Shown piece by piece: positions 13,264 to 27,950 of a DNA stretch of 38,249 nt. The position numbers and the translations under genes were made by a program. Under the pieces are notes generated by a model. It had not been told where the DNA came from. It saw only the letters and a list, made by a program, of their open reading frames with translations, and did not search any database. Position 1 is the stretch's first letter. Every line of letters starts with the position of its first letter. The stretch is from Spartinivicinus poritis. Lineage in GTDB: Bacteria > Pseudomonadota > Gammaproteobacteria > Pseudomonadales > Zooshikellaceae. Location of the stretch: positions 1 through 38,249 of the forward strand of contig NZ_JAPMOU010000048.1 in NCBI RefSeq assembly GCF_028858535.1. Direction: 5' to 3'.

Positions 13264-15684
13264 TTATTGACGAGTGTCTAAGCAGCCTTGCTTGACTGCC
13301 TTTAGCTTACGACAGATATCCATCGCTCTAGACTGATTTTCAATACCTGTAAATAGTACGCGGTAATAAGTACCTCGTTTACCATAGTTGGCGGACTTAA
13401 CTTTAGGCTGTAGGCCGTTGAGTAAGCTCCCATGGCGTTTTTGGATATTACTTATTGCCTGGTCGGCAGCTGTTGCTGATTTATAAGAGGCTAGCTGAAC
13501 AGCCCAGCGAGCAGAAGAGCTAGCAGGTGCTGCTGTTGAGGTTCGGGCAACGCTGCTGGCTGGACGTGTGTAAGATGTCTGTGAAGGTTGAGCTGTTACA
13601 GGCTTGTTATAGCGAGTTGGCTGGCTATTACGGGAGCCATAACTATTACTGGTATTAGCTGAGGGTTGGGTGCGAAGCGATTTTTGTGCATCTGTATGAG
13701 TGGTTGCAGTAAATAGCTTGTTAGCATCATCAGGTCTTGCCCGCTGAATATCATACTGTTCTGTTCGTTTATCAACGGCACTCTTGACTAGCTTAATGCT
13801 GGAGTATTTATCTCGGGTTAAGCCACTCACTTCATTGGTATTACGAATAATGGTGGGTTTGATAAATACCATTAAGTTTCGCTTTTTATGCGAGTTGTTG
13901 TCATTTTCAAATAATCGGCCAACTAAGGGGATACTGCTCAAAATAGGAACAGATGATTCACCTTGAACAACATCATCTTGTAGAAGGCCGCCTAACACAA
14001 TAATTTTTGAATCGTTAACCAGAATCGTACTTTTAATCTGTCGTTTACTGGTGACTTGGTTAAGGTTGCTGCTGCTTTCTGCAGAGGTGATGACGTTGGA
14101 TATTTCTTGATCGATCTCGAGGCGCATGGTATCGCCTTCGTTAATATGAGGGGTGACTTTTAGCTTTAAGCCAACGTCTTTACGTTCTACTGTGGTAAAG
14201 GGGTTGTTTGCTCCATCTGAGCCTGTTGTGTATGAGCCTGTTTGGAAAGGCACTTCTTGACCCACCAAAATTTCGGCCTCTTCGTTATCCATCGTCATTA
14301 GGCTGGGTGTTGATAGCAGGTTGCTATTGCTTTGCTGGGTGATAGCATTGAGAAGTATGCCAAAGTTACTATTACGTAAGGCCACTTGCCCAATCGGAAT
14401 TTTAGTATTATCAACTGCGGCACCGATGATAGAGCTAATTGCAGAGCCACCATTATCGCCTCCACCTGTTTTGGTGTCTTTACCAGCAATACCCCACTGG
14501 ATACCTAGTTGTTCTGAAATATCTCCAGACACTTCAACAATTGCTGACTCGATAAGTACTTGGGCTCGGCGAACATCCAGTTGTCGAACAATGTTTTCCA
14601 GCTCTCTGATCATTTCTGGTTCAGCAGCGATAATCAAAGCATTTTGTGATTCATCGGCTTTGATAATGGACTGCTTAGCGTCTTTTTTATCTTTGCCTGA
14701 TTGAACCGTAAGTGATTTGGAAAGCTCAGACAGTGCTTCTGCAAGGTTTTTGGCATCTGCGTGGCGTAAGTGAATCACTCGGGTTGAAGAGGCGCTGTCA
14801 GCTTCTACATCCATAGAACGCGCCATTCGCTTCACTTTGCTACGAAAAGCGGGTTTGCCTGTAATAATGAGTCGGTTGGTACGCTCATCAGCTATCAATT
14901 GGCCTGCCGGTTTACGTTGTTGCTGGCCTCCTAATAGTCCTTCTTTAATGACTTTCACAACATCACCTACCCAGGCATGCTCAAGTTTAATCACATCATG
15001 GTCAGCGTTTTCAGCCAAGTCCATTTCCCTAATGAGCTTTGCTAGGCGCTTTACATTGGCACTGTGGTCGCTAATGATAATCGAGTTGCTGGAAGCTATA
15101 GCAGCAGCATGACCATATTGTGGGATTAAAGGGCGAATGACAGGAATTAGCTCTACTGCAGATAAGTTAACCAGAGGGACTACCTTGGTTATCATATGAC
15201 CACTGCGGGGTCCTGATTTGCCATTAAATATGGGGACATCACTTTTTGCTTTGTTAGTGGGCACTATATTGATGGTTTTACCATTGGGTACGGCAGTGAA
15301 ACCATTGGCATGAAGCACAGAAAGAAATACATCGTATATTTCTTCTCTAGAGAGAGGCGAAGCTGATACTACCGTTACATTGTTTGGCCCTTTTATGCGA
15401 GGGTCAACAATGATCGTTTCACCTGTAATAGAAGCAACTTGGGCGATAAACTCTCTTATATCGGCGTTTTTCTGGTTGATTGTCCAGCGTTTACCATCAT
15501 CGGCATTGGTTTCTGCCAGTGTCACCGGTGTGACTGAAAAGCATAAACAAAGCACTGATGCATGAAAAAGTTTGGTCAATCTGGCCATAGTAAAGCGTTG
15601 TTGTTGGTAAGACATGTGATTATTATTCCAAGAATCCTGCTTATTATCCTGGTGAGTGGCTGCTTGTTTAAGGGCGTTTAGCAT
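13264..15684 (-). CDS. gspD: Type II secretion secretin GspD with C-terminal SPOR domain
   Basis: A protein of 806 residues from the ATG at 15684, which has GGAGG upstream; in-frame ATGs at 15615 and 15588 sit nearer the signal peptide (residues 33-58). N0 starts at about 68 (WTINQKNADIREF). N1-N3 repeats follow, for example VVPLVNLSAVELIPVIRPLIPQ. The secretin pore domain spans about 370-620, with LVGQEVPFQTG, KVTPHIN and VPILSSIPLVGRLF. It forms the outer-membrane channel. A Ser/Thr/Pro-rich linker (about 660-724) leads to an extra domain, residues 725-806, with WAVQLASY and YYRVLFTG, the pattern of peptidoglycan-binding SPOR domains, in place of a usual pilotin-binding tail. gspC precedes it by six bases. 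Confidence 0.95.
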   Translation of the reverse strand: MLNALKQAATHQDNKQDSWNNNHMSYQQQRFTMARLTKLFHASVLCLCFSVTPVTLAETNADDGKRWTINQKNADIREFIAQVASITGETIIVDPRIKGPNNVTVVSASPLSREEIYDVFLSVLHANGFTAVPNGKTINIVPTNKAKSDVPIFNGKSGPRSGHMITKVVPLVNLSAVELIPVIRPLIPQYGHAAAIASSNSIIISDHSANVKRLAKLIREMDLAENADHDVIKLEHAWVGDVVKVIKEGLLGGQQQRKPAGQLIADERTNRLIITGKPAFRSKVKRMARSMDVEADSASSTRVIHLRHADAKNLAEALSELSKSLTVQSGKDKKDAKQSIIKADESQNALIIAAEPEMIRELENIVRQLDVRRAQVLIESAIVEVSGDISEQLGIQWGIAGKDTKTGGGDNGGSAISSIIGAAVDNTKIPIGQVALRNSNFGILLNAITQQSNSNLLSTPSLMTMDNEEAEILVGQEVPFQTGSYTTGSDGANNPFTTVERKDVGLKLKVTPHINEGDTMRLEIDQEISNVITSAESSSNLNQVTSKRQIKSTILVNDSKIIVLGGLLQDDVVQGESSVPILSSIPLVGRLFENDNNSHKKRNLMVFIKPTIIRNTNEVSGLTRDKYSSIKLVKSAVDKRTEQYDIQRARPDDANKLFTATTHTDAQKSLRTQPSANTSNSYGSRNSQPTRYNKPVTAQPSQTSYTRPASSVARTSTAAPASSSARWAVQLASYKSATAADQAISNIQKRHGSLLNGLQPKVKSANYGKRGTYYRVLFTGIENQSRAMDICRKLKAVKQGCLDTRQ

Positions 15685-15690
15685 TATTGG

Positions 15691-16341
15691 TTAGCCTCCT
15701 CCGGCGCCCTTGTCTAACTGCTTCATACGTGATTGCAGCTCTTTCATTCGTTGCTGTGCTGATGCATTTTTTAATGGTTCTGGAGACGTAACGGAAACAG
15801 GTTCGGGTGGTTTGGGTAACTGATGTGGGCCTTTATACTCTTCAATTCGGTTAGGGCTATTAGCTTCTGGAAAGTAGAGTGTTTCTAGGACTCCATTTCT
15901 TGAAATAATGACATGATCTTTTTTCACTTTATGCAAAGTTGCCTGGCCAGGTAAAGTGTCTCCTACTTGGTAGAGTACAGCCTGGCGATTGCTACCTTCT
16001 ATTATGGCGCTAGATAACTTGTCATTTTGGTTAGCAAAGGCGCCTTTTAATACCAGTCTTAAGTTGGTTTTGGGAATGTGTTTTTGTACCACTGGCTGCT
16101 CACTTACTCCTTTACCAAACAGTAAAGCAATATTTTGGGCATTGTACTGGGAGCGGGGCTTGGTTTGTGCAACATTCCGGATAGCCTCTACTTGGGGTTT
16201 AGGCGCTGTTAATGCTTGGTAAAGTTGCATACCTTTAGACGCTAAAGTCATACCTATAAGCACTAGGACAATAAGACAAAAAGCAGAGATATTTTTTTTA
16301 TGCCCTAGTGTCAGATAGGGTGATAATGCTGTTGAGTTCAT
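15691..16341 (-). CDS. gspC: Type II secretion protein GspC, short form without PDZ domain
   Basis: A protein of 216 residues from the ATG at 16341; a TTG at 16449 would add 36 residues of unlikely sequence. There is a short cytoplasmic part, then one membrane helix (ISAFCLIVLVLIGMTLASKG, about residues 19-38), a linker, and the periplasmic homology region NLRLVLKGAFA through QVGDTLPGQATL to LETLYFPE (about 95-170). This region contacts the N0 domain of the secretin. The family often ends in a PDZ or coiled-coil domain. Here there is a proline-rich stretch and a short charged helix (QQRMKELQSRMKQLDKG) with a Gly-rich end. It couples the inner-membrane platform to GspD and is the first gene of gspCD. 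Confidence 0.92.
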   Translation of the reverse strand: MNSTALSPYLTLGHKKNISAFCLIVLVLIGMTLASKGMQLYQALTAPKPQVEAIRNVAQTKPRSQYNAQNIALLFGKGVSEQPVVQKHIPKTNLRLVLKGAFANQNDKLSSAIIEGSNRQAVLYQVGDTLPGQATLHKVKKDHVIISRNGVLETLYFPEANSPNRIEEYKGPHQLPKPPEPVSVTSPEPLKNASAQQRMKELQSRMKQLDKGAGGG

Positions 16342-17158
16342 AAGATAATTGAAAGCTGCTTGTAAGCTATTCCTTATTGAATAAATGCCTAAAAAACTGA
16401 GCGAAAGTCCAACGTACCCTTGCCTAAACGTCGGTTGCCATAATAACAATTATTGCTTGAAATGGGTCAAGCAAATTGCCTTAAGAGTGTGAAATTTGTA
16501 AAAAAATACTGTAAAACTGATGCCTATTAATACAAGGCACCATGAAAACGACAATTAACCTAAGTTTAAATTTCACACTCTATAACTCTAGGCTAAATTG
16601 GGCTTTTCGACAGTATGACTGTACTGTATCCAGTTGGTTCCAGTTAGCTGCTCAGCTAATAAACAAAATGAGGATAAGCTAAGGGAACTAACGACCCAAG
16701 AACTAACTAATAGTTAAATGATCTTTGCCTTAAGCTTTTGTTGTTATATCAAACAGTGGCTTTGCAGAAATAAACATAAAATAGAGATTTTTACTTTCGG
16801 CAACATGTGTTGTTGAACAATATTCATTGAACGTAACGGTTAGGTGAATAATAGTTAATAAGTGGATTGTTACAGTCAGTAGGTGTAGGTAGAGAGTTGT
16901 TACTTGGCGCTTATAAGTGAATGTGCATAAATAAAATTTGCTAGAAGCATTCAAGTATTTACGAGAAGAAAACAGTTAAAAACAAGTACTCTTATCCAAG
17001 AATACTGTTGTTTAGAAACTGTGACAGCTGTGAAAAAACACGGTTGTTTGGGGAATATATGGCTTGAATGGTGGTTAAAAAGTATTTCGCATGAGCCAGT
17101 TAAGTGAAAGAAACTTTTTCTCTAACCAGTCTTTCAGCTGAAAAGAGGTAGCAGAACA
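16342..17158. other. Divergent gspC/gspE control region, 817 bases without a supported gene
   Basis: AT-rich DNA between gspCD and gspE-M. It must contain promoters for both operons, but I see no convincing -35/-10 pair. The one strong structure is the 13-base inverted repeat listed separately. A 46-codon frame (16542-16682) and a 74-codon minus frame (16730-16954) lack any other support. In the Pseudomonas xcp locus the same two operons also diverge. Confidence 0.6.
16485..16580. repeat. Perfect 13-base inverted repeat flanking 70 bases
   Basis: GAGTGTGAAATTT at 16485-16497 is matched exactly by its reverse complement at 16568-16580. Pairing over a 70-base spacer could place two regulator-binding half sites, form a long-looped hairpin in the gspC leader, or mark the ends of a 96-bp miniature element. 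No flanking target-site duplication is obvious. Confidence 0.6.
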
Positions 17159-18709
17159 TTGAACGTGCCAGCGGTTGCAAATGGTGAGGCAGGAAGTGCT
17201 AGTCAGCAGTCTGAGTCGCATATACATAAAGGCTCGCCTGCAGAGAAAAGGCTGCCATTTGCCTTTGCCAAGAAATATGGTGTGCTTATCTATCGGCAAA
17301 GTGACGGTAGTGCCAAAGTTTTTCATAAGCAGGGACTTACACCTGTTGTGGCGTCTGAAGTTAGGCGTTTTGCAGCAGGGGCTTTGCCTTATGAATTAGT
17401 CGATGAAAGTCAGTTTTCGGAGCTGTTGTCAGAAACTTACCAAAATGATAGCTCTGAGGCATTTCAGGATGCTATTGGTATTAGTGATGATATGGATCTG
17501 GCGAGCTTGGCTGATGCAGTCCCTGAGTCTGAAGACTTGCTAGAGCAAGCTGATGATGCACCTGTGATTCGTTTGATTAATGCCATTTTTACTGAAGGCA
17601 TAAAAGAAAATACGTCAGATATTCACATTGAAACCTTTGAAAAGAACCTGGTAGTTCGGTTTCGGGTTGATGGGGTTCTTAGAGAAAAGTTAAGACTTAA
17701 ACGACAGTTGGCTGCTTTGTTGATTTCTCGGATTAAAGTAATGTCTAAGCTGGATATTGCTGAAAAGCGGGTACCTCAAGATGGGCGTATTTCGTTACGA
17801 GTAGCCGGTAAAGAAGTAGATGTGCGGGTATCGACCTTACCTTCAACCAACAGTGAACGGGTGGTTATGCGACTCCTGGATAAAGCAGCGGGTCGGTTAG
17901 ACTTGAATCACTTAGGTATGTCTATTGATGATACCAAGCTGCTTAAAGGTATTCTTTATAAACCCCATGGCATTATCCTTGTTACAGGGCCTACTGGTTC
18001 TGGTAAAACCACCAGTCTATATGCATCACTTGCTACCCTAAATGACCAAAGTCGTAACATTCTCACAGTAGAAGACCCTATTGAGTATAACCTGGAAGGT
18101 ATTGGTCAAACCCAGGTGAACCCCAAGGTGGACATGACTTTTGCTCGAGGGCTACGCGCTATCCTGCGGCAAGACCCCGATGTGGTAATGGTAGGGGAGA
18201 TTCGAGATGTCGAAACTGCCCAAATTGCTGTCCAAGCCAGTTTAACAGGTCACTTAGTGCTGTCTACGTTACACACCAATACCGCTGTCGGTGCAATTAC
18301 CCGATTACAAGATATGGGGATTGAGCCTTTCTTGCTTGCTTCCAGTCTGGTAGGGGTGCTAGCCCAGCGGCTGGTACGTCGACTGTGTGATGAATGTAAA
18401 GAGCCTTACCGACCAGATGAAGCAGAATGTTTGCGACTTCACTTAAACCCTGATGCGCCACCTGAAATTTATCATGCTAAAGGTTGTCCTAGCTGTAACC
18501 AACAGGGCTATCGAGGCCGGATGGGAATTTATGAAATTATTCCAATAGATAACGAGATGCGAAGATTGATTCATAATAATGCAGGGGAACAGGAAATTAT
18601 TGAGTATATCCGGATTGGTAGACCCAGTATCCGTGCTGATGGTCGTCGTAAGGTGCTAGCGGGACAGACCACCCTTGAAGAAGTACTTCGAGTCACTCAG
18701 GATGATTAA
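17159..18709 (+). CDS. gspE: Type II secretion ATPase GspE
   Basis: A cytoplasmic ATPase of 516 residues that powers pseudopilus assembly. The start is a TTG at 17159 with GAGG ten bases upstream; a GTG at 17165 is possible. The N1E region that binds GspL precedes the core. Walker A is GPTGSGKTT near residue 277, the Asp box is in [10 protein letters not shown], and Walker B is in [12 protein letters not shown] near 340, followed by the His box [11 protein letters not shown]. The zinc-binding Cys pairs C-D-E-C (about 409-412) and C-P-S-C (about 443-446) are intact. It heads a nine-gene operon through gspM. All catalytic elements are present. Confidence 0.97.
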
Positions 18710-18719
18710 GGGGTAAGTC

Positions 18720-19943
18720 GTGGCGGTTTACGAGTTTGTAGCGCTTGATGCTAAGGGCAAGCAGCAAAAGGGCACATTAGAAGCTGATAGTGCAAGGCAA
18801 GTACGGCAGATGTTGCGTGAAAAACGCATGTCGCCTTTAGATGTGGAGCTGGTTGCACAAAAGCAGAAACAGGCAAGCAGCAAAGCTGGAGGAGGGTTGT
18901 TTTCCCGGAGTATTTCTACCAGTGATCTCTCAATGGTTATTCGCCAACTGGCTACTTTGATTCAGGCTGCACTGCCTATTGAAGAAGCACTACGGGCAGT
19001 AGCTGAGCAGCAAGAAAAACAAAAAATAAAGAAAATTTTTCAAGCAGTGCGCTCTAAAGTATTAGAGGGCTACACTCTGGCACAAAGTATGGAAAGCTTT
19101 CCTGGTGTATTTCCATCTATGTATTGCGCAACAGTCGCGGCAGGTGAACATGCAGGCTTTCTGGATAAAGTGCTTAACCAGCTTGCCGATTATTCTGAAA
19201 GCCGTCAGCAGTCACAGCAAAAAATTAAAATGGCACTAGTGTACCCAATTTTATTGGTAGTTGCTTCGATTGCTATTGTCAGCTTTTTATTAGGGTTTGT
19301 AGTGCCAGATATAGTTAAAGTCTTTATTGATAGTGGTCAGGAATTGCCCGCTTTAACTCAGGGCCTCATTGATTTAAGTAACTTATTTCAAAACTACTGG
19401 TATTTTATGTTGCTTGGGGTGATTGGGTTTATTTATATTACCCGCGTTTTGTTAAGCAAACCCCCAATCAAACTGCGGTTTCACCGAGGCCTGTTGCGGG
19501 TGCCCTTAATTGGTCGATTTAATCGTCAGATGAATACGGCACGTTTCGCCAGTACCTTAAGTATTTTGACGCGCAGTGGTGTGCCGCTAGTAGAGGCCCT
19601 AAAGATAGCAACAGAAGTTGTCTCAAACCTTTATATAAAAGCCAGTGTGGGTGATGTTGCCCAGCAGGTAAGTGAAGGCTTGAGTTTAACTAAAGCGCTA
19701 GAACAAACGGGTCACTTCTCACCGATGATGATGCACATGATCGCAAGTGGTGAAGCCACCGGTGAGCTTGATGATATGTTAGAACGAACAGCCCTCAGTC
19801 AGGAAACTGATCTTGAGAATAGAATGTCAGTAATAGTGGGCTTATTTGAGCCGCTCACCCTGATGCTTATGGGGGGGATTGTGTTGGTGATTGTATTGGC
19901 AATTTTATTACCAATTTTAAACATGAACCAGCTATTGAATTAA
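18720..19943 (+). CDS. gspF: Type II secretion inner-membrane protein GspF
   Basis: A platform protein of 407 residues. The start is a GTG at 18720 with AAGGGG upstream. It has two repeats of the GspF/PilC domain with three membrane helices (about residues 171-195, 222-242 and 375-400). Motifs RQLATLIQAALPIEEAL (about 75) and TLSILTRSGVPLVEALKIA (about 281) are the paired domain starts. It binds GspE and GspL and passes the ATPase motion to the pseudopilins. It is ten bases downstream of gspE in the same operon. Confidence 0.96.
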   Translation: MAVYEFVALDAKGKQQKGTLEADSARQVRQMLREKRMSPLDVELVAQKQKQASSKAGGGLFSRSISTSDLSMVIRQLATLIQAALPIEEALRAVAEQQEKQKIKKIFQAVRSKVLEGYTLAQSMESFPGVFPSMYCATVAAGEHAGFLDKVLNQLADYSESRQQSQQKIKMALVYPILLVVASIAIVSFLLGFVVPDIVKVFIDSGQELPALTQGLIDLSNLFQNYWYFMLLGVIGFIYITRVLLSKPPIKLRFHRGLLRVPLIGRFNRQMNTARFASTLSILTRSGVPLVEALKIATEVVSNLYIKASVGDVAQQVSEGLSLTKALEQTGHFSPMMMHMIASGEATGELDDMLERTALSQETDLENRMSVIVGLFEPLTLMLMGGIVLVIVLAILLPILNMNQLLN

Positions 19944-19970: not shown

Positions 19971-20408
19971 GTGAAAAAGGTGATTGCTAAGTCAGCGCAG
20001 CAAGGGTTTACCTTAATAGAGATTATGGTTGTAGTCGTTATCTTAGGGATTTTAGGAGCGCTAGTAGTACCCAATATCATGAGTAAGCCAGACCAGGCCA
20101 AAGTAACTGTTGCAAAAGGAGATGTACGAGCAATTGCATCAGCACTGGATATGTACAAGTTAGATAACTTTAATTACCCCAGCACTGATCAAGGGTTAGA
20201 TGCGCTAGTGAAAAAACCCAGTGGCTCGCCAGAACCGAAAGGATGGAATAACCCTTACCTGAAAAAAGTCCCCGTTGATCCATGGGGTAATGCATATAAA
20301 TACTTGTCTCCCGGTGTACATGGGCCGTTTGATTTATATTCCTACGGTGCTGATGGCAAGAAAGGTGGTGAAGGCTTCAACGCTGATATTACTAACTGGG
20401 AAGAGTAA
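19971..20408 (+). CDS. gspG: Major pseudopilin GspG
   Basis: A protein of 145 residues from the GTG at 19971, with AAGGA upstream. The type III leader is 12 residues and ends QQG, before [18 protein letters not shown] with the conserved Glu at +5; prepilin peptidase cuts after that Gly and N-methylates the Phe. The peptidase gene is not in this window. The C-terminal part keeps the pattern [26 protein letters not shown] and [12 protein letters not shown], the calcium-binding region of the family. It is the main subunit of the pseudopilus. Confidence 0.97.
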
Positions 20409-20411
20409 TTA

Positions 20412-21002
20412 ATGCAGGTGTTGTCTCGTTTACCAAGACAACAGGGCTTTACACTAGTTGAGGTGTTAGTGGTGGTAGTCATCATTGGCACCTTGATTGG
20501 TATAACCGTGCTAAGCCCTTTACTTGGTGATAAAAGTAAGCGACTGGATGATGAGGCGCTACGTATAACCAAGCTGTTTGAACTGGCAGTTGATCAAGCG
20601 CTGGTCAAGGGGTATGAGCTAGGGTTTAAGGCTGAACCTTCTGGCTATAGCTGGCTGCGATATGATCAAGTAGAAAACCAATGGTTAGAGCTCAAAGAAG
20701 GTTCATTTCGCCCTCACCAATTACCTGAGGGTTATAGCCTGATGTTAAGTGCAGAAGACGATAAGTTTACCAAGTTTAAACTGTTTGATGAGGATGAAGA
20801 CGATAAAACCAGTTTTAGCCTGGAAAGTGATAGTGAAAAGGATAAAAAGCAGAAAAAGTCTAAGTTAAAGCCTCAAGTTGTCATTTATACAGATACACAA
20901 GTGACACCTTTCGAGCTCACGATTGACAGTGAGTACCATGACAAACCCAAAAAGCTAGTGGCAGACGGAATCAACCGTGTTGAAGTTAAAAAGCAAGACT
21001 AA
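20412..21002 (+). CDS. gspH: Minor pseudopilin GspH
   Basis: A protein of 196 residues. Cleavage is at QQG before FTLVEVLVVVVIIGTLIG, with Glu at +5. The globular domain follows the GspH pattern (LFELAVDQALVKGYELGF, then YSWLRYD). Residues about 125-153 form an insertion rich in Asp/Glu and then Lys (DEDEDDK, EKDKKQKK), likely a flexible surface loop. It starts three bases after gspG, and its last 26 bases overlap the first codons of gspI, so the two are translationally coupled. Confidence 0.93.
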   Translation: MQVLSRLPRQQGFTLVEVLVVVVIIGTLIGITVLSPLLGDKSKRLDDEALRITKLFELAVDQALVKGYELGFKAEPSGYSWLRYDQVENQWLELKEGSFRPHQLPEGYSLMLSAEDDKFTKFKLFDEDEDDKTSFSLESDSEKDKKQKKSKLKPQVVIYTDTQVTPFELTIDSEYHDKPKKLVADGINRVEVKKQD

Positions 21003-21369
21003 AGGGTTTACCTTGCTAGAGGTAATGGTGGCACTGGCTATTTTTGCCAGTGCTGCCGCTGTGTTAGTTATTTCTGATGGCAGTGCTATTAAGCAAACAA
21101 TTTATTTAGAAGAAAAAATTCTTGCCAGCTGGATTGCCGAAAACCAATTAGCTCGTATGCAACTAGAAGCTCAGTGGCCTGAGTTGGGTAAAAAAGAAGG
21201 CACGGTTAGTTTTGCACAACGTAACTGGAAAGTAACGACTGAAGTGTCAAAAACCTCTCAAGAAAATTTTAATAAAGTGGAGTTAACAGTTTCACGACAA
21301 GAGCAAACTAAATCTGCAGAAGATAACGTATTGTTTACCTTAACGGGGTATTTAAGGAAACAGTCTTAA
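20977..21369 (+). CDS. gspI: Minor pseudopilin GspI
   Basis: A protein of 130 residues. The start is a GTG at 20977 (or TTG at 20980) inside gspH. The short basic leader ends TKG before FTLLEVMVALAIFASAAA, giving a prepilin peptidase site with Glu at +5. The segment ASWIAENQLARMQLEAQWP is a GspI signature, followed by FAQRNWKVTTEV. With GspJ and GspK it forms the tip of the pseudopilus. Its stop overlaps the gspJ start by one base. Confidence 0.95.
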   Translation: MLKLKSKTKGFTLLEVMVALAIFASAAAVLVISDGSAIKQTIYLEEKILASWIAENQLARMQLEAQWPELGKKEGTVSFAQRNWKVTTEVSKTSQENFNKVELTVSRQEQTKSAEDNVLFTLTGYLRKQS

Positions 21370-22100
21370 TGAAGTGTACTGTCGTGCCTGGAAAATATTT
21401 TAAACAAAACGGCTTTACTCTATTAGAGCTGCTTATTGCTATTGCGTTATTTTCAATCGTGAGCATTGCCGCTTTTCGTTTATTTGATACGGTTGCCAAT
21501 ACTAAACAAGCGACAGAAAAAAGTTTAGCGCGCATTAATCAATTGCAGCGAGCGCTACTCATTATTGAAAAAGATCTTAGTCAAATAACGCCTCGTCCTA
21601 TTCGTAATGAGCTGGGTGATAAACAGCCTGCGTTTATTGCTAATAAAGATGGCTTTTTAATTCAATTTAGCAAAGCAGGCTGGCGAAACCCTAGCTATGC
21701 TAAGCGAAGTAATATCCAGCGGGTGGCTTATATTTTTGAAGCCTCAGATGGTCAATTAATACGACAATATTGGTTATCTTTAGACCGGCCAGGAGAAACC
21801 AAACCAAAACAGCAAGTGTTAATTGAGAAGTTGCAAAATGTCTCTGTGCGTTTTTTAGATCAAGACCGAAAATGGAAAACCGAATGGGCAACGCCTGCGA
21901 GCAGCCAGCAAGTTCAGGGTTTTCCTGGTGGTGGCAAGCAACAAGATCCCAATAAAAAAGTACCCTTAGGCATAGAAATTTCCTTAACTGATCCACGTTA
22001 TGGTCAGGTTAATAAAATTATTATGGGTATTACTATTCCACAGCCTGATCAACAGGGGAATAATAATAGCCAAGAGTTACCTAAACCACCACAGACTTAA
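21369..22100 (+). CDS. gspJ: Minor pseudopilin GspJ
   Basis: A protein of 243 residues. The leader ends QNG before FTLLELLIAIALFSIVSIAAF, with Glu at +5. The body shows the GspJ pattern: LARINQLQRALLIIEKDLSQITPRPIR near residue 55 and VAYIFEASDGQLIRQYW near 118, then VSVRFLDQDRKW. The C-terminus is a Gln/Asn/Pro-rich tail. It is a tip-complex partner of GspI and GspK. Its ATG overlaps the stop of gspI. Confidence 0.95.
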   Translation: MKCTVVPGKYFKQNGFTLLELLIAIALFSIVSIAAFRLFDTVANTKQATEKSLARINQLQRALLIIEKDLSQITPRPIRNELGDKQPAFIANKDGFLIQFSKAGWRNPSYAKRSNIQRVAYIFEASDGQLIRQYWLSLDRPGETKPKQQVLIEKLQNVSVRFLDQDRKWKTEWATPASSQQVQGFPGGGKQQDPNKKVPLGIEISLTDPRYGQVNKIIMGITIPQPDQQGNNNSQELPKPPQT

Positions 22101-22131: not shown

Positions 22132-23238
22132 ATGAACTGGATGAGTTATAAGCAGCTAAATAAACAAACAGGGGTAGCCCTTATTTTTATCATGGTGATT
22201 TTTAGTTTAATCACTGTTTTAGCTGCAAAAATAGTAACCAACATACGTTTAGAAACTGAGCGCACCAGCCATTTGCTGATGCGCCAGCAAGCCAAGCAAT
22301 ACGCTTATTCTGCTGAGCAATTAGTTGCTGAATTACTGCGAGCTGACAAGGAAAATGATGAGCGTAATAAAGCAGTTAAAGATCACTATTTTGAAGCTTG
22401 GCACTATCAACAGGAAGAATTGAAAATCGATACGGGTGATATTGGTAAAATTGAAATTGATGTATTTGATCTGCAAGGGTTTATTAATTTAAACAGTTTA
22501 GCTGCAACTGGTTCAAATAATAACAACCAGCCTCCAGGTGGTAATCCTTCAAACACTCCAGGAGGAAATAATCCAGGTAATAACCAAAAGGGTAGCCCTC
22601 TAAATAGTAAGGTTGTTCTTGAAAAGTTGTTAAGCTTACAAGGTATAGAAACTAATAAAGCCAAGCAAATTGTCAGCCAAATTGTGGACTGGGTTGACAC
22701 CAACCAACAGGTGAGTTCTGGCGGTGCTGAGGATGATGACTATTTGTTAGGTGACAACCCCTACCGCACTGCTAATGATCAAATGGTCTCTGTATCAGAG
22801 CTAATGCTACTGGCCAATATGGACTATAAAATTTATCGCAAACTGGCTCCTTTTGTAACAGTGATCCCAGCTGCATCAGGAGATACTAAAATTAATGTTA
22901 ATACAGCTCCAATTGAAATATTTCAGGCTTTGATAGAAGGGCTAGATAAGCGTTCTGCTGAGAACCTTGTTAAGGCTAGAGGAAAAGAAGGGTTTAAAAA
23001 AATTGATGACTTTACTGGCCATCAGATTTTAGCAGGGAAAGGAGACAAGCTTCCTAAAGGCAGTCTGGATATCAAAAGTGATTATTTTAAGGCTGTCATA
23101 AAAACCAAGTTTGCCGATGCAGAATATTACTTAGTGAGTTATTTTCATCGGAGTCCTAAACAGGGTGTGAGTGTGATCTCACGGCAAGAAGGGCAACCAT
23201 TAATTCGATTGGCTAAACCAAAAGTAAAAAAAGACTAA
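22132..23238 (+). CDS. gspK: Minor pseudopilin GspK
   Basis: A protein of 368 residues. The start is the ATG at 22132 (or 22141). The leader ends KQTG before VALIFIMVIFSLITVLAA; as in GspK generally, the Glu at +5 is absent, which places it at the pseudopilus tip. The large globular region contains DVFDLQGFINLNSL and NPYRTANDQMVSVSELMLL. A helix-hairpin-helix-like part, INVNTAPIEIFQALI, follows. Residues about 127-158 are a Asn/Gly/Pro-rich insertion, probably a disordered loop. Confidence 0.95.
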   Translation: MNWMSYKQLNKQTGVALIFIMVIFSLITVLAAKIVTNIRLETERTSHLLMRQQAKQYAYSAEQLVAELLRADKENDERNKAVKDHYFEAWHYQQEELKIDTGDIGKIEIDVFDLQGFINLNSLAATGSNNNNQPPGGNPSNTPGGNNPGNNQKGSPLNSKVVLEKLLSLQGIETNKAKQIVSQIVDWVDTNQQVSSGGAEDDDYLLGDNPYRTANDQMVSVSELMLLANMDYKIYRKLAPFVTVIPAASGDTKINVNTAPIEIFQALIEGLDKRSAENLVKARGKEGFKKIDDFTGHQILAGKGDKLPKGSLDIKSDYFKAVIKTKFADAEYYLVSYFHRSPKQGVSVISRQEGQPLIRLAKPKVKKD

Positions 23239-23259: not shown

Positions 23260-24597
23260 ATGGAAGGGTATCTTTTTATCCGCGTTACAGATGTATCTGG
23301 CTCTGAGCCAGATCAGATAAGCGCTGAATGGCTTGGGTGCAATTCAGAAGGTGAGCTGCATTTTGGCCCTTCCCGGGGACAGCTGACTGCCCTTGAGCAA
23401 ACATTAGCTGAGCAGGAAGGGATCAATAAGGTAAAAGTAGTTGTGGTAGTGCCTGCTGATCATGTGCTTATGCTAAATGTGCCAGTGAATGCAGGCCAAA
23501 TGAAGCACCTGAAACAGGCGCTGCCTTTTATGCTGGAAGAATATCTGATCAATGATATTGACGATATGCATATAGTGACTAACCGGCAAGTTGCTAATGA
23601 AATGTTACCTGTGGCAGCCGTTAATCATGAATATATAGCGCCCCTCTATGAAGCTATTCATGCAATTGGTTTAGTACCAATGCTGTGTATTTCTGAGTCA
23701 CAACTGGTTACTACCAAAGATGACACCATTCAGGCCATTATTGATGGTGATCGCTCTTTGCTGGCGATTCCACCAAACTGTTTTTTTGGCCTGGATATGC
23801 ATGCATTGCCCTCAACGCTAATGACGGTTTTAGAAAACCCTTCTGAATATCGACAAATAGATGTGGAGGATGACCCAAGTGCAGCAATTGCCGCAGAGTT
23901 TAAACAAATTAAAGTAACAGTAGCTAAGCCTTTAACCACTGAAGTGAAAAAGTTACTAAAACAGCTGGAAACTCAGCTGGCAAGCCACCAAATTAGCTTG
24001 GAATATTCTGCACTGAAAGGCACTATTTTTCACTACTTATGCCGTAGTTTTTTACAACGAACGGATTACTCTGCGTTTATTAACTTGTTCCAAGACCCCT
24101 ATGGCGTTAGTTCTGAAAACACTGGACTGGGTGTCTGGAAACCACTGGTTGGCTTAGTTGCTGGTTGGCTGGTACTGGCTGTTGGCTTGAATGTTGGGCA
24201 AGGGGTTTATTTTGACTTGCAAACCAACAATCTGAAACAGCAAAGCATTTCTCTTTATCAGGATGTGTACCCAAATGATGATGCAGAAGAAGAGTTGCAG
24301 GAAAGGATGGTTAGCCGCTTAAAGGCAGCAGGTGGTGGCAAACAGGAAAGTCCCTTCATGGATATGTTGGTGAATGTTTCTTCTGTAACCCAGCAACTGG
24401 GAGGGCAGCAAATCAAACCGAAGAGTTTGGATTTTAACCAGTCAGCAGGTTCGCTCACTATCGAAGTGCATGCAAAAAGTTATGAGATTTTGGATAACTA
24501 TGTACAAAAGCTAAAGGGCAGCGGCCTTTCAGCTAATTTGGAAACAGCTAACCAAGAGAAAGCTAGCGTACTGGCGCGTATCAGCATCAAGGTTTAG
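23260..24597 (+). CDS. gspL: Type II secretion protein GspL
   Basis: A protein of 445 residues. The cytoplasmic N-terminal part (1-290) is the actin-like domain that binds GspE (VPADHVLMLNVPV, then LKQALPFMLEEYL near 87). One transmembrane helix lies at about 294-314 (LVGLVAGWLVLAVGLNVGQG), and then a periplasmic ferredoxin-like domain (about 360-445) pairs with GspM. It joins the ATPase to the membrane platform. It follows gspK by 21 bases; TAGGTAGG lies before the ATG. Confidence 0.94.
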   Translation: MEGYLFIRVTDVSGSEPDQISAEWLGCNSEGELHFGPSRGQLTALEQTLAEQEGINKVKVVVVVPADHVLMLNVPVNAGQMKHLKQALPFMLEEYLINDIDDMHIVTNRQVANEMLPVAAVNHEYIAPLYEAIHAIGLVPMLCISESQLVTTKDDTIQAIIDGDRSLLAIPPNCFFGLDMHALPSTLMTVLENPSEYRQIDVEDDPSAAIAAEFKQIKVTVAKPLTTEVKKLLKQLETQLASHQISLEYSALKGTIFHYLCRSFLQRTDYSAFINLFQDPYGVSSENTGLGVWKPLVGLVAGWLVLAVGLNVGQGVYFDLQTNNLKQQSISLYQDVYPNDDAEEELQERMVSRLKAAGGGKQESPFMDMLVNVSSVTQQLGGQQIKPKSLDFNQSAGSLTIEVHAKSYEILDNYVQKLKGSGLSANLETANQEKASVLARISIKV

Positions 24598-24603
24598 TAA
24601 AAT

Positions 24604-25122
24604 ATGAAAGCGTTATCTGAGCAGTTACAACAGTCAGCGGCATTTAAGCAACTTCACAGCAAGTATCAGGCATTAAATGAGCGAGATCGAAAAGCACTGT
24701 TATTAATGATTGGTTTTTTAACTTGTGTACTGCTTTATGTCATGGTTTGGAAGCCATTGGCTCAATGGGCAAATGATGCTCAGTCTGACTATTTTCGTGA
24801 GCAAGAAACCCTGGCCTGGCTAGAGGTGAATGCCCCCGTTGCCAAGCAGGTGCAAGCCAGTCAGTCTAGAGGGCAGCAGTTTAGTAAAGATAAAATTTCA
24901 GCGGTTGTTACCAGTGCTGCCAGGCGCAGTGGTATTAAGCTGAGCCGAGTACAACCCGGGAGTCAGGGAGTAACCGTTTGGGCTGAAAAAGTGCCTTATC
25001 AAAAGTTGTTAGAATGGCTAGTCTATTTACGTAACCAGTATCAACTGTCAGTTGATAAGATTCGTATTGATGCTCAAGATGAGCCTGGCGTTGTTCGGGT
25101 TTATGTGAGTGTGACAGCGTAA
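24604..25122 (+). CDS. gspM: Type II secretion protein GspM
   Basis: A protein of 172 residues. There is a short cytoplasmic N-terminus, one membrane helix (ALLLMIGFLTCVLLYVMVW, about residues 30-48), and a small periplasmic domain ending VPYQKLLEWLVYLRNQYQLSVDKIRIDA. It stabilises GspL in the inner membrane. It is the last gene of the gspE-M run. No gspN follows, as in xcp-type loci. Confidence 0.93.
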   Translation: MKALSEQLQQSAAFKQLHSKYQALNERDRKALLLMIGFLTCVLLYVMVWKPLAQWANDAQSDYFREQETLAWLEVNAPVAKQVQASQSRGQQFSKDKISAVVTSAARRSGIKLSRVQPGSQGVTVWAEKVPYQKLLEWLVYLRNQYQLSVDKIRIDAQDEPGVVRVYVSVTA

Positions 25123-26636: not shown

Positions 26637-27950
26637 TTGGGACACAAATCCTTTGAAGAAGCCATCATGTTCTTTAATAGTCATGGACTCTGTAAGCAAA
26701 TGCTATATTCAGAGTTTGATGCTATTTTGGATGGCATCGTGTTAGTGCAGGAGTTTGCTTCACAAACGGTTAAAGGCGCTTATGTCAGAGTAGCCCCTTC
26801 TTTAACTATTCAGTCTGTTGTGTTGTTTTATTTAACCTTCAACGAAGAAGGTCGAGCTGATTGTAAATGGAATATTCCAGTTCAGCATATGGCAGAAGTA
26901 GCTGGAAGAGGTCCTGATTTGGGAGATGGACATATCCGTATTGCTTGTCGTACTCAATGTCCGGTGAGCTGGCATCAGCGATTATTATGGGACCCCAAGC
27001 CATCAGCGATTAATGAGTTGGTATTAATTAAGGCTGCACTTAAAAGAAATAAACTACGGTTCTACGAAGACTATGTAGAGCCATCGGCCCCTCAGCCACC
27101 ACAACAAAAACCAGTAGCTAAGCAGCCGTCATCAGTGCAAGGTTACCAACAACAATTGCAAGCATTACGTGATCAATTGGATCAACGTATTCAAAACCAA
27201 CAGCTTAAGCATGAAAATAGTGTAGCGAAGCTTGATTTAGAACTAATGGAATTAAAGTCGCAACTAAAAAAAGCTGAGCATGAGGCAAAACAGTATAGAC
27301 AGCAGTTAGTTCAAAAGAATCAAGAATATCAAACTAGCCGCAAAGAAATGACGCGGTTGCTCCAAGATATTGAGGCACAAAACCAAAATCGTTTGGCTGA
27401 CCTGAAAGAGTCGATCACAAAAAAAGTAGAGGCTAAGTATCGTACTCAACTTAATGAGCTACGTGATTTAGTCAAAGCAAAAGATGTTGAAATTAGCTAT
27501 TTAGAAGATATTGATAAGCAGCAACAGTTAGAGCTTGAAAGGTTGCAACAAGAAAATAAACAACTAAAAATCACCCACCCTGGTGATGTATTAGCTCAAT
27601 TGGCAGCTAAAGGTGTTATGTTTATGGCCTATCACCCAGGGGTGGGTCATGTGACTATTCCAGTTAAAGATGTTGATGAGTATTTAGCAGATAATATTGC
27701 TTATGTAGCCAAGCGTTGTTTTGTATCGAAAGAGCATTATTTGAGTTGGCGCAGGCATTATGAGAATGCAACTTGTGATGCAACGGTTAATGGCAAGCGC
27801 TGTGGTCAACCCATTGCTAGGGTTGAGGTACCCAGAGAGTATGAGGTAGACAAGTCAAGCATGTGTGTCGATCACCAGAAAACAGAAAAAGATGAAAAAG
27901 GTGAACAGATAGAAAGTGGCCAACCTCCTCAGCTAAAAGTATCGCGATAA
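26637..27950 (+). CDS. Conserved hypothetical coiled-coil protein with C-terminal Cys/His motif
   Basis: A protein of 437 residues with no certain family. The start is a TTG at 26637 with a strong AGGAG six bases upstream; the first in-frame ATG is at codon 11 and lacks a site. Residues 1-145 form a globular domain (SFEEAIMFFNSHG, then KWNIPVQHMAEVAGRGPDLGDG). A Pro/Gln linker (about 148-165) follows, then a long coiled coil (about 168-318) rich in Gln, Lys and Glu. The C-terminal domain begins DVLAQLAAKGVMFMAYHPGVGHVTIP and ends with a C-x8-C-x20-C-x2-H pattern (about 383-416) that could bind zinc. The layout suggests a scaffold or a nucleoid/partition-type protein, but that is only shape-based. 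A strong terminator follows. Confidence 0.85.
   Translation: MGHKSFEEAIMFFNSHGLCKQMLYSEFDAILDGIVLVQEFASQTVKGAYVRVAPSLTIQSVVLFYLTFNEEGRADCKWNIPVQHMAEVAGRGPDLGDGHIRIACRTQCPVSWHQRLLWDPKPSAINELVLIKAALKRNKLRFYEDYVEPSAPQPPQQKPVAKQPSSVQGYQQQLQALRDQLDQRIQNQQLKHENSVAKLDLELMELKSQLKKAEHEAKQYRQQLVQKNQEYQTSRKEMTRLLQDIEAQNQNRLADLKESITKKVEAKYRTQLNELRDLVKAKDVEISYLEDIDKQQQLELERLQQENKQLKITHPGDVLAQLAAKGVMFMAYHPGVGHVTIPVKDVDEYLADNIAYVAKRCFVSKEHYLSWRRHYENATCDATVNGKRCGQPIARVEVPREYEVDKSSMCVDHQKTEKDEKGEQIESGQPPQLKVSR

Follow-up and report, generated by a model that had tools for sequence, protein, structure and literature searches.

The window analyzed here, a 38,249-nucleotide stretch of the Spartinivicinus poritis genome (contig NZ_JAPMOU010000048.1), contains gspD (13264–15684, reverse strand), which encodes an 806-residue, XcpQ-like secretin of a type II secretion system (T2SS) with a SPOR domain at its C-terminus. 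This GspD is a complete Xcp-like T2SS secretin that is extended, after the whole S-domain, by a linker and the SPOR domain. It exceeds the equivalog cut-off of TIGR02517 (517.4 bits vs 351.35), and its Pfam domains run in the order N0, three Secretin_N stretches, secretin domain, and SPOR. The fusion is real, conserved, and probably evolved repeatedly, and we regard its predicted role in wall tethering as plausible. With moderate confidence, we favor a tail that acts as a multivalent peptidoglycan tether, probably biased toward septal or polar glycan, in a T2SS that has no recognized pilotin.

Architecture of the secretin and evidence for the SPOR domain

The SPOR domain spans residues 725–806 (13267–13512); together with the stop codon of the open reading frame (ORF), this is the interval (13264–13512) that the initial annotation of the stretch had correctly assigned to a C-terminal SPOR domain of GspD. 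It is preceded by a Ser/Thr/Ala/Pro-rich linker (residues 659–724; 13513–13710), which had been put at about 60 Ser/Thr/Pro-rich residues and measures 66, with Ser, Thr, Pro, Gln, Asn, and Ala together making up 76%. Ahead of the linker, on the same strand, are the N0 domain (residues 69–138; 15271–15480; PF21305, 87.7 bits), the secretin domain (residues 448–614; 13843–14343; PF00263, 167.8 bits), and the secretin end with the S-domain region (residues 615–658; 13711–13842). The S-domain residues P651, L657, and F658 are invariant in 20 aligned GspDs, seven of them tail-less, and most SPOR-less Pseudomonadaceae GspDs have this motif and then stop shortly after it. The idea that the tail is merely a common non-SPOR S-domain is rejected, as the S-domain motif precedes the linker. 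The predicted local distance difference test score (pLDDT) is below 50 across residues 628–725 in a full-length AlphaFold2 model, which is itself poor (pLDDT 49.9) and was used for SPOR and linker confidence only. The nearest solved structure is PDB 5wln (E 3e-171), assigned to Pseudomonas aeruginosa (PMC6532946).

Two of the cysteines of GspD (791 and 801) are inside the SPOR domain, where a disulfide between them is possible, and the remaining two (46 and 48) are in the signal-peptide region. Some 32 residues precede the likely signal peptide (window 15493–15684), and a strong GGAGG site lies ahead of them. Synonymous divergence over this interval is low in one close pair of the four (own genome vs G001; pS 0.10 vs 0.45–0.55 elsewhere in the pair).

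The Pfam SPOR model (PF05036) gives a single match in GspD, at C-terminal residues 724–799 (37.7 bits, cut-off 21, E 2.5e-9), and none before N0; a whole-genome scan returns the same site (E 1.2e-8) as one of six SPOR matches in the genome. SPOR-tailed GspD is encoded in all five genomes searched of the family, Zooshikellaceae (G000–G004), each above the Pfam cut-off. A profile built from 18 SPOR domains of non-secretin proteins from four genomes scores the tails of these five genomes at 12.2–17.2 bits and all 19 other SPOR-tailed rows (two of them second copies of family members) at 15.1 bits or more, vs 9.1 bits for the best of 1000 shuffles of the family tails and 3.2 bits for the best of 106 GspD C-termini sorted as SPOR-less. 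With so small a profile, the tails outscore the shuffles by a narrow margin; by Pfam, the margin is wide. A chance match is rejected by the Pfam score, by the shuffle and control scores, and by purifying selection (below), and a frameshift or assembly artifact is rejected because the same architecture occurs in five of five family genomes.

AlphaFold2 modeling of residues 719–806, from an alignment of 15 tails of which 12 are of the Stutzerimonas type, predicts the SPOR fold, strand-helix-strand-strand-helix-strand, at a mean pLDDT of 82.5. WAVQLASY forms the first strand and TYYRVLFTGI the third, which agrees with the placement of both strands (the latter as YYRVLFTG) in the initial annotation. 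The first three Foldseek matches in the PDB are all SPOR domains, namely CwlC (1x60; E 4e-4) and RlpA (6i09, 4e-3; 6i05, 5e-3), with query template modeling scores of 0.66–0.67 and with E below 0.001 in the first only; the ranks below the third are other proteins, many of them ferredoxin-like. A profile of the 15 tails searched against solved structures matches FtsN (1uta; E 2e-11), CwlC (2e-7), and DedD (6ztg; 0.003), while RlpA (0.03) scores no better than an unrelated dehydrogenase. For FtsN, the residues singled out are Q251, S254, W283, R285, and I313, with Q251 and R285 corresponding to RlpA Q270 and R309 (PMC6895207). By alignment, Q730, S733, Y773, and R775 of GspD correspond to FtsN Q251, S254, W283, and R285, and the positions of Q730, S733, and R775 are invariant in the 15 tails. 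The modeled fold and the aligned contact residues fit a predicted binding of denuded glycan.

The SPOR tail is under purifying selection, and constraint on the linker is weaker. The ratio of nonsynonymous to synonymous substitution rates (dN/dS) in three close pairs is 0.032, 0.036, and 0.053 for the SPOR part (a fourth pair is saturated), 0.010–0.027 for the core, and 0.065–0.216 for the linker, which is above its neighbors; some of these pairs approach saturation at synonymous sites. An extension that is neutral or decaying and currently serves no function would suit the patchy presence of the tail among relatives, and also the tail of a paralog in the genome taken for P. aeruginosa PA7, which falls below the Pfam cut-off (19.5 bits). 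However, purifying selection on the SPOR part, weaker as it is on the linker, the retention of the tail throughout the family genomes, and the likelihood of more than one gain make such an extension very improbable.

Distribution and origins of the tail

A named-genome scan found 506 relatives, of which 80 were kept; with loci from the other searches, those of the own genome and the family among them, these provided a set of 131 GspD frames, one being a part copy of the window. SPOR-like tails occur in 24 of the other 130 frames, several of them as second copies from one genome. The Pfam scans, which left out the tail of G931, placed SPOR above cut-off in ten of ten tails (lowest 22.0 bits), in six of six further tails (and not in one tail-less control), in two of three tails of a third set, and in four of five of a fourth, which includes the miss of the third set and one gene from the set of six. 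The tail that misses the cut-off is the PA7 paralog mentioned above.

Wider searches used a profile, A3, composed of the secretin end with the DedD-like and family SPOR tails. It sees two of three tail types and is blind to others, so that its class- and phylum-level counts are lower bounds. Of 369 genomes at class level, 262 match at E 1e-15; among the matches listed, which are ranked by E-value, only G000 (1e-95) and G024 (3e-111) run through SPOR, the next being at 5e-38. The phylum-level search matches 164 of 398 genomes at 1e-25, and among the matches listed three run through SPOR (G270, G024, and G000) and G230 does so partly. Of 298 genomes in the family to which G024 belongs, 115 match at 1e-50. 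The 31 that run through SPOR comprise 30 of the 52 matching genomes of the genus of G024, which appears to be Stutzerimonas, and one genome of another genus. With a DamX-like profile (A7), 114 of the same 298 genomes match at 1e-60, 15 of them through the tail at E ≤ 4e-88 and G931 at 2e-65. Since G962 and G968 occur in both the A3 and the A7 sets, SPOR-tailed GspD is present by profile in 45 of the 298 genomes, part of which were Pfam-checked. The architecture highlighted by the initial annotation thus exists among GspD homologs but is not singular: a tail unique to the genus is rejected, since the feature also occurs in Stutzerimonas and in paralogous Pseudomonas secretins.

Other long GspD frames, surveyed in 28 hand-picked genomes with some long frames omitted and positions compared by eye, had no SPOR domain in any genome, and no remnant of a lost SPOR domain was seen by eye behind the stop codons of tail-less Stutzerimonas-type gspD genes at six loci. 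Among plasmids, a DNA search found one weak record; a protein search with a DamX-type GspD query matched 862 records, and none of the 20 matches listed extends past residue 664 of 779.

Six Stutzerimonas-type tails are 53–62% identical to the SPOR domain of a DedD-like protein in G024, with the tail of G024 itself at 58%. The DedD-like gene in question (L182:7710-8432) lies 3.6 kb from the SPOR-tailed gspD of that genome and is a possible domain donor. By Pfam, it is situated behind genes for a Cys/Met enzyme, a glutamine amidotransferase, and CvpA, and before a Mur-ligase-like gene, a row that we take to be metZ, purF, cvpA, dedD, and folC; the labels DedD-like and DamX-like rest on our reading of gene order and motifs. 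In the SPOR tree, the DedD-like kinship is weakly supported (83/56) and the DedD-like tails do not form a single clade, whereas the tails of Pseudomonas indica, Atopomonas hussainii, and the paralogs group with DamX-like SPOR domains (100/92 and 95/97). The tails of the family itself form a third group (100/100), the position of which is open and which joins neither the DedD-like nor the DamX-like domains. DedD- and DamX-like SPOR proteins are probable donors of two of the tail types.

GspD core trees of 127, 65, and 71 rows, made by a quick method, place the family clade as sister to three tail-less f8 sequences. The DedD-like tails form one group in these trees and the DamX-like tails take two changes, with three tail-less rows among them; the any-SPOR state requires four, five, and five changes. 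More than one tail gain, or tail swaps, appears likely from these trees because the tail types occupy different parts of the secretin tree, and one common origin of all tails is not supported, although several forks are open and neither the DedD-like nor the family tails can be placed by their SPOR domains, which have diverged too far; a single gain followed by many losses would be the less likely alternative. Repeated gain, in turn, argues for a use of the tail. P. indica has two XcpQ-like secretins (L062 and L114), one SPOR-tailed and one not. Several DamX-like linkers (A7 alignment; L062, L039, L193, L194, L213, and L218) keep a stretch approximating ETPKPVDPxxLGxGxGGE, with variants in L213 and L218, which is unusual for a disordered linker.

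The resemblance of two tail types to the SPOR domains of DedD- and DamX-like proteins would also be compatible with a tail that contacts peptidoglycan synthases or hydrolases so as to open or rebuild the wall at the site of the secretin; interactions of DamX and DedD with PBP1A and PBP1B, and stimulation of both synthases, have been reported (PMC7642682). However, only the SPOR part is shared with these proteins, and the tail type found in the window groups with neither of them, so that enzyme recruitment seems an improbable function compared with peptidoglycan tethering.

The secretion locus and the predicted role of the tail

The core genes of a T2SS adjoin gspD. Directly upstream on the same strand is gspC (15691–16449; PF11356, 91.4 bits), and a divergent row on the forward strand begins with the gene for the GspE ATPase (17159–18709; TIGR02533, 696.7 bits) and continues with gspF (18720–19943; TIGR02120, 489.8 bits), gspG for the major pseudopilin (19971–20408; TIGR01710, 202.2 bits), gspH (20412–21002; TIGR01708, 88.8 bits, cut-off 80), gspI (20977–21369; TIGR01707, 86.6 bits), gspJ (21369–22100; TIGR01711, 152.9 bits), gspK (22132–23238; NF037980, 249.9 bits), gspL (23260–24597; PF12693 and PF05134), and a gspM-like gene (24604–25122), for which NF007274 is the sole NCBIfam model matched, at 49.4 bits and far below its cut-off of 352. 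We take the divergent gspCD and gspE–M arrangement to be the layout of the xcp locus. Past the T2SS genes, a 437-residue ORF (window 26637–27950) has no Pfam match and a weak SMC match far below cut-off. The genome has a second T2SS locus (L184:7528-17927), which includes gspC, D, E, L, and M by a Pfam scan that skipped the genes between them, and its GspD (635 residues) lacks SPOR.

The initial annotation had suggested that a secretin with this tail could be tethered to or targeted along peptidoglycan without GspA/GspB or a pilotin, or be placed at the septum. In line with the pilotin part of this suggestion, the S. poritis genome has no match to the PulS/OutS or AspS pilotin families (PF16549 in none of one genome searched; PF09691 in none of seven, own included), with an Escherichia coli control matched for both. 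GspB (PF16537) had no match in the five family genomes, although none of 14 control genomes matched either, and no search for GspA was made. GspD has no AMIN match at E 0.001, and the PilQ model is below cut-off.

Solved secretin structures place the S-domain on the outside of the barrel, where it binds an outer-membrane lipoprotein pilotin (PMC6532946, PMC6882859). The S-domain motif of the S. poritis GspD is intact and the linker and SPOR come after it; by this argument the SPOR domain therefore most likely hangs in the periplasm, beneath the outer membrane. Solved relatives have 15 subunits, and a secretin of that size would present some 15 SPOR domains, each on a flexible linker; at 66 residues, such a linker is estimated to span the few nanometers to the peptidoglycan. 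The SPOR tails would bind glycan strands stripped of stem peptides and so tether the pore to the wall; they could also bias where secretin monomers gather and assemble, because denuded glycan is enriched at the division site. The tail would then do for the T2SS roughly what AMIN does for PilQ, and would replace a pilotin or a GspAB anchor. PilQ requires its AMIN domains for septal and polar placement, in P. aeruginosa before oligomerization (PMC5285504, PMC10653833).

Many copies of the tail might give avidity even for sparse denuded glycan, in which case the tail could be a static anchor that holds the finished pore to the wall against mechanical load, at any point along the cell and without a septal or polar role. 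Wall anchoring of T2SS parts has been described for GspB/OutB and for GspA (PMC9239104). We consider a purely static anchor doubtful and retain the tether with a septal or polar bias, against which the following points weigh. The SPOR score of this GspD is modest, FtsN W283 is replaced by tyrosine, and I313 and most RlpA contacts are left unmapped; moreover, FtsN S254A still localizes (PMC6895207), so that the serine match carries little weight. The C-terminal topology is argued from other secretins, with a poor full-length model of the protein itself. Most surveyed GspDs have no tail; in the Stutzerimonas-like genus it is missing from 22 of the 52 genomes that match. A dispersed distribution of T2SSs has been reported, and three of ten species break the correlation between AMIN and position (PMC10653833). 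In the pilotin-independent ExeD, the S-domain end and what lies beyond it matter little (PMC6532946).

More tentatively, and with somewhat less than even confidence, we propose that the SPOR tail serves as a plug-in placement module, gained repeatedly by T2SS secretins of Pseudomonadales from DedD-like, DamX-like, and a third source. Such a module would tie pore assembly to denuded septal glycan, and T2SSs would be built at division sites and inherited at the poles without a pilotin. A removable tail from a domain family of known ligand chemistry bears on how so wide a pore is accommodated in the cell wall and on how secretins that lack a known pilotin are positioned. In one genus, roughly half of the sampled genomes with a match have the tail (30 of 52) and the others do not, which makes a connection between the chemistry of the wall and the position of the secretin directly testable. 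T2SS secretins have been noted as lacking AMIN and reported as dispersed, and a correlation between module and position has been suggested beyond type IV pili (PMC10653833); SPOR-tailed secretins constitute a natural test of that correlation for a wall-binding module.

Comparison with known secretins

The closest solved secretin is XcpQ of P. aeruginosa (5wln), whose xcp locus has the same divergent layout as that of S. poritis. The XcpQ-like GspD of the genome taken for PA7 (L107) differs in that it ends shortly after the S-domain and has no SPOR. The same genome has an extra gspCD pair (L213:5782-8635), the GspD of which carries the degenerate, DamX-like SPOR tail discussed above. This pair may be XphA/XqhA, an orphan GspCD subunit that is described as part of a functional hybrid Xcp system and as encoded outside the xcp locus (PMC6567927). 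The candidate is distinct from the GspD of the window in its tail type, in being a paralogous secretin, and in a SPOR score below the Pfam cut-off. DedD- and DamX-like SPOR proteins share the SPOR part with two tail types and are not secretins.

The initial annotation knew of no studied example of this architecture. No description of a C-terminal SPOR tail on GspD was found in titles and abstract openings of the open-access literature. A SPOR domain on a T2SS secretin has a precedent in LspD of Legionella, a GspD secretin described with an N-terminal SPOR domain (PMC9239104) that has been termed predicted (PMC6617341). Like the GspD of S. poritis, LspD is a SPOR-bearing GspD, and it is described as without a canonical pilotin or GspA/GspB homologs. 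In LspD, however, SPOR is N-terminal and precedes N0, whereas here it is C-terminal and follows the S-domain on a long linker. A further parallel is PilQ of the type IV pilus, likewise a secretin with its own wall-binding module, which in PilQ has been shown to direct septal and polar placement (PMC5285504, PMC10653833); there, by contrast, the module belongs to the AMIN domain family, is located at the N-terminal end, and serves a different machine.
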